DNA of 64,000 nt from Lentisphaeria bacterium (GCA_024405215.1 JAKSPB010000015.1:1-64000); one strand, 5' to 3'. Shown: positions 24,418 to 27,922, counted from the stretch's first letter. Numbers and translations are program-made. The notes: generated by a model from the letters alone, not told the origin.

Positions 24418-25902
24418 ATGCCCTCAAAAACACGCGAATCCAAGGATACTCCCAGACCAGTTTCTTCGGAGAGTGTATCCATGGCGTCAACGAACTATTC
24501 GGATCTCGCCTTGAGCGTTTCCGCTCTTGACAACCTGTCTGCCTTCGGACGGGCAAGCCAGCCTTCGCTCGCCGTGTCCCACAATCAGCAGGAGGCAGTC
24601 CAGCAGAACAATGCCTCCATGCCGCGTCCAGTTGGCCACATCACCTCCGATATCGGTCCGGATCCAGGTTGTTCCCAGACGCAGATCAAATTCGATGATC
24701 TGATGTCCCAGGAGGCTGTAGAAGGCATCCGCTTTGATTTTGCATTCGGCTATCGCGTCAGCATCCCGCCGGCGCCGCAACCGCGGACTTATTTGGTCAA
24801 GATCTTTGACATGACCAGCGGACTGCTGCTATGGCAGGCCGAAATGCAGAGCGGGCAGACGGTCATCGGACAGAAGAAGTTCCTGATCCGCTATCGTCTG
24901 GAAATCCATAGAGACGGCAAATTGCTCTTTGGCCATGACTTTGACTTGAAGGGCCGCAAGGTCTATGCGGTCATCCCCGACGGCGGTCTTGGAGATAATT
25001 TGGCCTGGCTGCCTATTGTGGAGGAGTTCCGCAGGACCACGGAAGCGAATGTGACCTGCGTCATCGGCGAATGGATCATCAAACTCTGCGCCGACCTCTA
25101 TCCTGGGCTGACTTTCGTGCCAGTGGACGAGAAACCGCTGTTGCATCAGGCGTACGCATGTTATTTCTGCGGCATCTTCGATGCGGAGCATCTGGACTGG
25201 CGCCCCATCGAACACCAGCAACTGGGCATGCAGGGAAGCGTGGAGTCCATTCTGGGGCTTCCGACGGCTGTGGCACACAAATGCCGTCTCCATACCGGCA
25301 GCGCGCGTCCCTTCCCGGAACCCTACGTATGCATTTCGTCCATGGGGACCAATCCATGCAAGTGCTGGAATTACGAGGAGGGCTGGAACCAGGTCATCCG
25401 TTTCCTGAAGGCCTGCGGCTATCGTGTATTGGACATAGACCGTGATTCGGAGCTTTTCTTTGCGGGGAAACGATATGCGATCCCGACCGAGGCGGAGAAT
25501 TTTACGGGGCGCTTCCCCATCCAGGAGCGTATCGACCTGCTGGAGCACGCCGATTTCTTCATCGGCCTTCCCAGCGGACTTTCCTGGCTGGCGTGGGAAG
25601 TGGACCTTCCCGTGGTCATCATTGCCGGCTTCACGCTGGATGGCAGCGAGTTCCCGACGCCGTACCGCATCACGAATTTCCTGGCCTGCCATGGCTGCTG
25701 GAATGACTCGCGAAACTTCTTCGACCAGAAGGTCCCCGTATGGTGCCCACGCCATGCGGGGACGCCGCGCGAAATTGAATGCACCCGTGCCGTCACTCCC
25801 AAGATGGTGATGGATACCATCATGAAGATTCCGCAGTTCCGCCAGCAGACGGCGCACATGATTCTCAAGCAAGCTCAGGAGGCATCCAATGGACAGGCTT
25901 AA
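24418..25902 (+). CDS. BAHT-type protein O-heptosyltransferase (TibC/Aah-like)
   Basis: 494 residues from ATG 24418. A bacterial autotransporter heptosyltransferase adds heptose from ADP-heptose to Ser/Thr of surface proteins. Family features: a Ser-rich N-terminus of about 75 residues; a beta domain (KIFDMTSGLLLWQAEM to RLEIHRDGKLLFGHDFDLKGRKV); the GT-B core with VIPDGGLGDNLAWLPIVEEF (the LGD Asp), CISSMGTNPCKCWNYEEGW (Lys of the nucleotide-sugar site) and FIGLPSGLSWLAWEVDLPVV; then a metal finger with Cys424, Cys427, Cys443 and Cys455, like the iron finger of TibC. The next gene overlaps by 14 nt. No autotransporter adhesin substrate lies in the window. Confidence 0.87.
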   Translation: MPSKTRESKDTPRPVSSESVSMASTNYSDLALSVSALDNLSAFGRASQPSLAVSHNQQEAVQQNNASMPRPVGHITSDIGPDPGCSQTQIKFDDLMSQEAVEGIRFDFAFGYRVSIPPAPQPRTYLVKIFDMTSGLLLWQAEMQSGQTVIGQKKFLIRYRLEIHRDGKLLFGHDFDLKGRKVYAVIPDGGLGDNLAWLPIVEEFRRTTEANVTCVIGEWIIKLCADLYPGLTFVPVDEKPLLHQAYACYFCGIFDAEHLDWRPIEHQQLGMQGSVESILGLPTAVAHKCRLHTGSARPFPEPYVCISSMGTNPCKCWNYEEGWNQVIRFLKACGYRVLDIDRDSELFFAGKRYAIPTEAENFTGRFPIQERIDLLEHADFFIGLPSGLSWLAWEVDLPVVIIAGFTLDGSEFPTPYRITNFLACHGCWNDSRNFFDQKVPVWCPRHAGTPREIECTRAVTPKMVMDTIMKIPQFRQQTAHMILKQAQEASNGQA

Positions 25903-27922
25903 CCGGGAACATCAGATCTGGGCGCCGCTGGGCATTCGGCTCAATTGGCATGATGGCCTGAGTATCAAGTTCCCGGTTTCGGAGCATTCCTTCCATTTGA
26001 AGGTAACGGCGCTGCACAACGGAGCCGTCGTCTGGGACTGCGACGTGCCCCCCACCGCGCGGCAAGAAAGAATCTATCATACCACGCAGACTTATAACAT
26101 CCCCTGGCAGGTGGAAATCAGGCAAGCCGACGGCCGTCGGCTCTTTTTCTGGCGAACGGATCTTACCGGCCGGGATGTGTGCCTGCGTTTCCTTACCGAG
26201 TCGCTAGGCGATGTCATTGCCTGGATGGCGGTGGCGGACAGATTCCACAGCATTTACAACTGCTGGATGGCGATTCAGATGAAACGGGAGTTCATTCCGC
26301 TTTTCGCCGCGATTCGCCCGCGGTTCCATTTCATCGAGGAATCGGCGTTCAAGGCTGGCGATTACGACGCGGTTTTCCCGATCAGCCCCAGCGAGGAAAC
26401 AATATTCGCCCCTGTGCCTTACAGCCGCGTCAATCCCTTCACCTATGCGCAGAATCTTCTTGCCGTCGACAATCCGCTGGAGATTCCTACTTTGGTGGAA
26501 CAGCCCGCTTCTGTATCGCGTCCGGCAGAAAAATATGCCTGTCTGCTTACTGGCAAGGGTGAAACGGAACTCTGCGGAATGAAGAAGGCTGAATGGGCTG
26601 TTGTAGCCTCCTTCCTGCGTGAAAACGGCTACGAGACAGTGACGCTGGATGACACGGCGCCGCTGCTGGAAAATCTGTCGCTCCTGCAAGGGGCACGGTT
26701 CGCCATAGGAGTGATGACGCCGCTGCTCTGGCTGGCCTGGGCCTCAAAGAAAGACGCCGTGCAATTGGTCGGAACAGGGTGTGAGAATCAGATTCCTGCC
26801 TCTGAATTCAGGGTGACGCGACCTGAAAACGGAACGAGTTCGGCAGGTGATGCCATTACCTCTGAAGAAGTCATCGGCGTCATCAAGACAGTTCCCGCAT
26901 TCCTGAAAGAATACCGCAAGAACCACCCGCTGGACAATTCAGTGGATTTCTCGGTGCTGGTGCCTGTGCATAATGGCGAAAAGACGCTGAAGCGGTGCCT
27001 GGACTCTATCCTGAATCAGACATGCGGCAATTTTGAACTGATTGCGTGCAATGATGGCTCCACGGACAACACGCAAGCCATTCTTGACGCATACGCCAAG
27101 CAGGACAGCCGCGTCCGTCTATTGAACCATCCCGTCAATCAGGGACGCATGGCGACCCGCCGCGACCTGGCGCAGGCGGCCACGAAAGCTTACACAGTCT
27201 GGGTGGATTGCGATGACGAAATCGCGCCGGACTATCTTGAGACCGCCAGCCGCGCTCTCGCGGGAAAGGATTGCGACGTCGCCGCGTTGCGCTGTGAACT
27301 GAGGCTGGCCTACAGCGGAATCCGCCGGGCGCCTGTCCGCGGCGGCATCGTCCGTGGTGACAGCATGCTGTCTGTTTTTCTGAAAAACGATGCCTTTTTG
27401 GATTGCTTCTGGGGCAAGGCATTCCGCACTTCATTGCTGAAGAAAGCTGTCCCCACGGGATTTGACAAGTTGCTTCAGGAGGATATGTTCTTCATGCTGC
27501 CGCTTTACGAGCAGGCCAAGTCATTCCTGTATGTCCCCAGTGCCCGCCCGATGTACATCTACTACGGCGATACGGGAGAATGGAGCAGCAAGCTGCATAA
27601 CATGACACCGGAGCTCTTTGAGGAGTACTGCCTTCTGCGCCATGAACAGATTGTCTTCTCCGCCGATTATCTGACAAGCCGTGGCTATGGCGAGGACATT
27701 CTGCGGCAATATATACAGAATCTTGGCCAGTTCCAATACACATTGGGCGTCCTGGAAAGTCATCCAGCCTGGTGGAAGCAAGGCGTTGAAATCTTCCTGA
27801 AATGGTTCTGCAAGGAGCCAAACTGCCTGCTCAACGATGGCAAGGTGAAGCTGCCCGATGTTGCCGCCGCTCTTCGCAGGCAGGTTGACGCCATTGCAGG
27901 GAAGGCCGGAACGGCATCGTAA
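25889..27922 (+). CDS. Degenerate BAHT-like domain fused to a GT2 glycosyltransferase
   Basis: 677 residues. Residues 1-340 repeat the layout of the upstream BAHT protein (IRLNWHDGLSIKF, QVEIRQADGRRLFFWRTDLTGRDV, LTESLGDVIAWMAVADRF, GVMTPLLWLAWASKKDAVQLV) but lack the four-Cys finger, and the substrate Lys region is not conserved. From about 352 a GT-A GT2 domain begins: SVLVPVHNGEKTLKRCLDSIL, IACNDGSTDNTQAI, WVDCDDEIAPDYL (DxD) and LLQEDMFFMLPLY. About 190 C-terminal residues are helical. It overlaps the BAHT gene by 14 nt. The likely role is extending or co-modifying the protein-linked heptose, with the BAHT half as a docking subunit; both are inference. Confidence 0.82.
   Translation: MDRLNREHQIWAPLGIRLNWHDGLSIKFPVSEHSFHLKVTALHNGAVVWDCDVPPTARQERIYHTTQTYNIPWQVEIRQADGRRLFFWRTDLTGRDVCLRFLTESLGDVIAWMAVADRFHSIYNCWMAIQMKREFIPLFAAIRPRFHFIEESAFKAGDYDAVFPISPSEETIFAPVPYSRVNPFTYAQNLLAVDNPLEIPTLVEQPASVSRPAEKYACLLTGKGETELCGMKKAEWAVVASFLRENGYETVTLDDTAPLLENLSLLQGARFAIGVMTPLLWLAWASKKDAVQLVGTGCENQIPASEFRVTRPENGTSSAGDAITSEEVIGVIKTVPAFLKEYRKNHPLDNSVDFSVLVPVHNGEKTLKRCLDSILNQTCGNFELIACNDGSTDNTQAILDAYAKQDSRVRLLNHPVNQGRMATRRDLAQAATKAYTVWVDCDDEIAPDYLETASRALAGKDCDVAALRCELRLAYSGIRRAPVRGGIVRGDSMLSVFLKNDAFLDCFWGKAFRTSLLKKAVPTGFDKLLQEDMFFMLPLYEQAKSFLYVPSARPMYIYYGDTGEWSSKLHNMTPELFEEYCLLRHEQIVFSADYLTSRGYGEDILRQYIQNLGQFQYTLGVLESHPAWWKQGVEIFLKWFCKEPNCLLNDGKVKLPDVAAALRRQVDAIAGKAGTAS

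Follow-up and report, generated by a model that had tools for sequence, protein, structure and literature searches.

A putative O-glycosylation locus of a Lentisphaeria bacterium, in which a predicted BAHT heptosyltransferase gene overlaps the gene of a degenerate-BAHT/GT2 fusion

The described BAHT enzymes, TibC and AAH, transfer single heptoses onto autotransporters and work alone. Replacing Lys230 or Arg286 of TibC by alanine leaves little or no transfer, changes to the thumb tip or the finger cysteines disrupt both dodecamer and activity, and the donor preference is read from the Pro300 position (PMC4358343). A different arrangement is known from the glycosylation of accessory Sec adhesins, where GtfA, an active glycosyltransferase, is joined by GtfB, an inactive partner that binds the acceptor, and other glycosyltransferases then extend the glycan (PMC12809243).

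The locus described here lies in a window of 64,000 nucleotides (the whole stretch of DNA that was analysed) from a gut bacterium of the class Lentisphaeria. It consists of two overlapping plus-strand genes, P1 and P2, set between minus-strand genes, and the coordinates, frames and 14-nt overlap given in the original prediction are correct. The same pair is present in a congener, genome G261 (JAKSPA010000137.1, a horse-faeces MAG; L085/L095), which serves below as a reference. The features of the locus are as follows:

24418-25902, plus strand: P1, predicted BAHT protein O-heptosyltransferase of 494 aa (TIGR04414, 390.9 bits; TibC, E=3e-83; start backed by the congener)
24700-25830, plus strand: BAHT domain of P1, with beta-barrel, GT-B lobes, thumb and iron finger (alignment to TibC)
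25876-25902, plus strand: ribosome-binding site AGGAGG within the end of P1, and the overlap with P2 (kept in the congener)
25889-27922, plus strand: P2, pseudo-BAHT/GT2 fusion of 677 aa (TIGR04414 and PF00535 matches)
25922-26818, plus strand: degenerate BAHT half of P2 (TIGR04414, TibC alignment, fold match)
26942-27560 (end approximate), plus strand: GT2 (GT-A) domain of P2, with DCDD at residues 440-443 (PF00535, 1.3e-30; PDB 5hea, E=9.5e-25)
27570-27919, plus strand: C-terminal helical tail of P2, residues about 561-677 (secondary structure of the AlphaFold model)

The minus-strand genes upstream of P1 encode a UDP-sugar pyrophosphorylase and a lipid A acyltransferase-like protein, and the one downstream of P2 encodes a protein without a Pfam match. 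The overlap itself spans positions 25889-25902 (ATGGACAGGCTTAA), and the region with the Shine-Dalgarno (SD) motif and the overlap reads CAGGAGGCATCCAATGG in the window and CAGGAGGTTGCCAATGG in the congener (L095). With the SD AGGAGG placed inside the end of P1, the two genes are predicted to be translationally coupled.

P1 shows the full BAHT layout that had been proposed for it, with the Asp of the LGD motif, the Lys and a four-Cys finger. It matches TIGR04414 with 390.9 bits (E=5.5e-117), above the curated cut-off of 200, and TibC (4rap) with E=3e-83. Like TibC and AAH (BAHT family, TIGR04414; PDB 4rap and 4rb4), it has the complete domain order, the catalytic Asp, the donor residues, the thumb stretch and the iron finger. 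In the alignment D193, T311, K315, R371, P385 and W390 of P1 correspond to D110, T226, K230, R286, P300 and W305 of TibC, and C424, C427, C443 and C455 align with the four iron-finger cysteines; every residue whose mutation kills TibC is present. The thumb stretch measures 22-23 residues in all 27 P1-type rows, P1 included, with no conservation of Phe265/Val266 at its tip. Residues 1-94 are variable, with the P1-type signature IGPDP at 79-83. By these features P1 is a predicted protein heptosyltransferase, both in its activity and in the class of its acceptor.

The donor is more likely ADP-D-glycero-D-manno-heptose, because a Pro stands at the TibC Pro300 position, as it does in 27/27 P1-type proteins. 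From its gene content the genome appears able to make ADP-heptose: an HldD epimerase scores above its model cut-off, and an HldE-type nucleotidyltransferase domain is found below its own. The latter (L087:5017-6045, contig 14 of the same genome) is fused to a domain that is nitroreductase-like by eye.

The N-terminal half of P2 had been described as a BAHT layout without the finger and without the Lys region. This description holds, and the losses go further. Residues 12-256 match TIGR04414 with 100 bits (E=1e-28) and residues 1-354 taken alone with 104 bits (E=9e-30), both below the curated cut-off of 200; the half is homologous to BAHT, but would not be filed as an equivalog member of TIGR04414. 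A phmmer comparison with TibC gives E=1.6e-16. The AlphaFold model of the half (pLDDT mostly 80-93) has TibC as its top fold match (Foldseek E=1e-22, TM 0.70 by TibC length) and thus aligns with a GT-B fold, a match that is partly circular because the input alignment contained BAHT sequences. The beta-barrel and the N-lobe are the best-kept parts. The Asp base (D108) and the equivalent of Trp305 (W281) are retained, whereas Lys230, Arg286 (replaced by Asn262), the beta-hairpin thumb and the iron finger are gone. Of 98 BAHT domains, 96 have both Lys230 and Arg286, the only exceptions being P2 and its congeneric orthologue. Judged by these replacements, donor binding is lost from this half.

The C-terminal half carries the complete GT2 domain with a DxD that had been predicted: it matches PF00535 with E=1.3e-30 (107 bits, gathering score 23.3) and has DCDD at residues 440-443. 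Its best solved relative is GalT1 (PDB 5hea, E=9.5e-25). AlphaFold models this half poorly, with a pLDDT of 54 when it is taken alone with two sequences. The helical tail that follows it has no family match in the Pfam and NCBIfam searches. An assignment to the LPS core was considered for the GT2 domain and set aside; the best NCBIfam model, NF007482, gives 82.9 bits against a cut-off of 423, too low to use, and a literature search on this assignment returned nothing.

Taken together, the two proteins could form a coupled O-glycosylation unit, in which the first gene heptosylates and the second holds the acceptor while its GT2 adds the next sugar; we give this reading of the unit even chances. 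P1 would act ahead of export, using ADP-heptose as the donor to place a heptose on Ser/Thr residues of a surface protein. The BAHT half of P2 would serve as a non-catalytic module binding the acceptor or the product of P1, and the GT2 domain may then add the next sugar onto the protein-linked heptose. That the dead half binds the acceptor and that the GT2 works on heptose are both proposals; the probable product of the pair is a sugar chain made in two steps on a surface protein. The stepwise growth of an O-glycan, already suggested for the locus, is retained as the most economical reading, also since BAHT and GT2 recur together in several architectures (see below).

For the dead half, docking either to the active dodecamer or to the substrate had been envisaged. 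Docking to the substrate fits better, and insertion into a TibC-type ring is unlikely because P2 lacks both ring-assembly modules, the thumb and the iron finger (PMC4358343). A related reading has the pseudo-BAHT half hetero-oligomerize with P1, so that the GT2 is recruited by the enzyme and not by the substrate. The fold common to P1 and to the BAHT half of P2, the translational coupling of the genes and the precedent of GtfA-GtfB for complexes of active and inactive glycosyltransferases all speak for such an adaptor, whereas the missing thumb and finger, which TibC needs for ring assembly (PMC4358343), speak against it. An inherited homotypic interface is also not expected, as the BAHT half of P2 belongs to another lineage (see below), and in two related genomes, G206 and G225, the P1-type and P2-type genes are on separate contigs. 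We consider this adaptor role unlikely. Acceptor binding followed by extension is preferred because the best-kept part is the N-lobe, which bears the base and faces the acceptor, because decay has affected the donor lobe and because the GT2 joined to this half is intact.

The pair had been expected to occur outside its source genome, and it does so in the congener, a second species, where the 14-nt overlap, the SD and the losses in the BAHT half of P2 are all conserved; the flanks differ from those in the window, and the contig is short. It is rare, however: among the 198 genomes of the class that were searched, the exact P1/P2 pair is present in 2 and the P2 architecture over its whole length in 4. 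Between the window and the congener, dN/dS is 0.06 for the P1 core, 0.08 for the P2 GT2 core and 0.20 for the P2 BAHT half (0.13 for residues 99-210 and 0.31 for the donor lobe), ratios that are rough because dS is about 1.2 and close to saturation. The donor lobe of P2 is thus more relaxed than the acceptor side, and the value of about 0.20 for the dead half as a whole indicates that it is maintained by purifying selection. These values bear on a further alternative, in which P2 works through its GT2 half alone, while its BAHT half is what remains of a once bifunctional enzyme and is decaying. The loss of the donor pocket, thumb and finger, the donor-lobe ratio of 0.31 and the long P2 branch would agree with a remnant; the ratios of 0.20 over the whole half and 0.13 in the N-lobe, the open frame and the retention of the Asp and Trp in both species would not, and we judge this explanation improbable.

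Within the family, P2-type genes are found in 4 of 6 genomes with a P1-type BAHT and in 0 of 23 without one (Fisher p=6e-4, kinship not corrected). Counted the other way, a P1-type BAHT is present in 4/4 family genomes with a P2-type gene and in 2/25 of the remaining ones. In G225 the P1-type gene is cut at the contig end.

The closest relatives of P2 are the BAHT-GT2 fusions of G206 and G225, which have its architecture and score about 1,100 bits against the P2 profile, one that these fusions helped to build. In the tree P2 groups with them at 99/90 (100/97 after adding viral rows); together they then join the BAHTs of prophages and viruses at 100/99 with a midpoint root. P1 falls elsewhere, into a Lentisphaeria clade that comprises 27 rows (100/100). 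The P2 branch is long, and it is therefore more certain that P2 is separate from P1 than where exactly it belongs. The origin of P2 as a copy, as implied earlier, does not hold, since P2 falls into a distinct, phage-allied BAHT lineage; a tandem duplication of P1 is ruled out by the placement of the two proteins in different lineages. The sister fusions are unlike P2 in that their BAHT half keeps the donor Lys, Arg and Trp together with the iron finger, their GT2 is eroded and without the DxD, and no P1-type gene is adjacent. The loss is hence reciprocal, a dead BAHT with a live GT2 in P2 and a live BAHT with a dead GT2 in the fusions, and the extension of heptose by the GT2 may therefore not be the common ancestral role. 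We tentatively propose, with rather less than even confidence, that a phage-allied dead BAHT domain has become an acceptor-recognition module that brings a GT2 to proteins on which a cellular BAHT from a different lineage has placed heptose, and that this, with the reciprocal loss in the sister fusions, represents a modular system of O-glycan extension in Lentisphaeria.

The phage and prophage BAHT proteins share with P2 their side of the tree (100/99), and their thumb stretch is short, as in the intact P2-type fusions; they differ from P2 in having an intact donor site and in standing alone or being fused to methyltransferase or GT4/GT9-like domains. Such viral or prophage proteins were recorded at L166-L187 (IMG/VR contigs), L040:7350-8513 and L155:6667-8568, several of them fused to other enzymes. 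The partner is a SAM methyltransferase in L155 and L166 and GT4-like in L187 (and by eye in L186); in L168-L172 a protein of 1556 aa combines BAHT, GT9-like and GT4-like parts. Two BAHT-domain proteins stand in tandem in L184, and one prophage copy is near an SU10-type capsid gene. At L034:6384-9229, the gene of a BAHT-GT2 fusion with an eroded GT2 overlaps by 4 nt with the gene after it, which encodes a Kdo/WaaP-family kinase (PF06293).

In a survey of 25 named P1-type loci, a GT2 adjoins or is fused to the P1-type BAHT at 12 loci besides the P1/P2 pair, or 13/25 with the congener pair included. A separate GT2 gene lies directly 3' of the BAHT gene at 10 loci, two encode P1-GT2 fusions (1040-1055 aa) in which the BAHT sites are intact, and one has the P1/P2 pair. 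The GT2s next to P1-type genes and those in the two long fusions are mutually related (165-210 bits). The GT2 of P2 matches the GT2s paired with other P1-type BAHTs at only about 30 bits, so those GT2s are parallels and not orthologues, and the association of BAHT with GT2 seems to have arisen repeatedly.

Other P1-type loci have pseudopilin genes, PqqD and radical SAM genes, or none of these. For P1/P2, too, one has to weigh whether the target is something different from a large surface adhesin, such as a RiPP-like peptide or pseudopilins. A close P1 homologue from another genus of the family (57% identity) stands between radical SAM/SPASM and PqqD genes, one P1-GT2 pair follows a PqqD gene, and another P1-type clade follows pseudopilin genes. 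None of those genes, however, adjoins the pair in the window, the PqqD genes of the same genome are on other contigs, and the pilin-associated clade has Glu for the catalytic Asp, so its chemistry may differ. Such a target is quite improbable in our estimation. The cluster with the close homologue (L038:5269-10258) runs radical SAM/SPASM, BAHT, PqqD, nucleotidyltransferase and beta-helix protein, and looks like a RiPP-type or peptide-modification cluster. In L043, L045 and L099 the P1-type BAHT comes directly after pseudopilin genes and a pilin-like protein of 1170-1230 aa, and all three have the Glu (GLGENFAW).

A surface protein remains the preferred acceptor of P1. The Ser/Thr-rich autotransporter or adhesin that was anticipated nearby is not found in the near flanks of P1/P2, which hold unrelated genes, and the genome itself (97% complete) has no TIGR04415 target (strand-loop-strand repeat autotransporter). 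The sole autotransporter candidate in the genome, a small beta-barrel protein without a real passenger, was rejected, and counts of NosD/beta-helix proteins in seven genomes do not track P1/P2. Far from the pair, the window encodes a right-handed beta-helix protein of 686 aa (PF13229; 57536-59596, minus strand). On contig 12 of the same genome (L188:1997-12012) a conserved small gene of 80 aa precedes a 3067-aa Ser/Thr-rich repeat protein with 19% Ser/Thr and repeats that resemble a beta-helix by eye. Relatives of the 80-aa gene stand before many BAHT genes, being present in 72/80 BAHT genomes and 54/118 others (hand count). As a BAHT marker this gene was discarded, being unspecific (126/198 genomes, often in several copies), and because its family is so widespread the 3067-aa protein is a substrate lead only.

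With regard to known systems, the remark that no described example of such a pair is known has to be revised, as GtfA-GtfB is a described pair of an active and an inactive glycosyltransferase (PMC12809243). The likeness to P1/P2, which are known here from sequence, is one of logic, an active/inactive pair followed by extension. GtfA-GtfB is of the GT4 type, adds GlcNAc, occurs in Gram-positives, has an inactive partner without an extending glycosyltransferase and is not of the BAHT family; P1 and P2 have no match to GT4 models, their matches being to BAHT, GT9 and GT2 models. GalT1/CgT (PDB 5hea), the best solved sequence relative of the P2 GT2, is a stand-alone GT2 and resembles the P2 domain over only about 120 residues, all in the donor half. 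TibC and AAH are single-gene enzymes acting on the AIDA-I/TibA autotransporters, with no second BAHT-like protein or GT2 described alongside, and P1 differs from them in its separate Lentisphaeria clade and its N-terminal IGPDP motif. The P1/P2 pair is a new variant form of BAHT-based protein glycosylation. Together with the BAHT-GT2 fusions and the loci where the two genes adjoin, it suggests that heptose on proteins is extended in Lentisphaeria, and a glycan of this type would be new. In the dead half of P2 the acceptor side is kept and the donor side lost, which makes the role of the TibC beta-barrel and N-lobe in substrate recognition directly testable.
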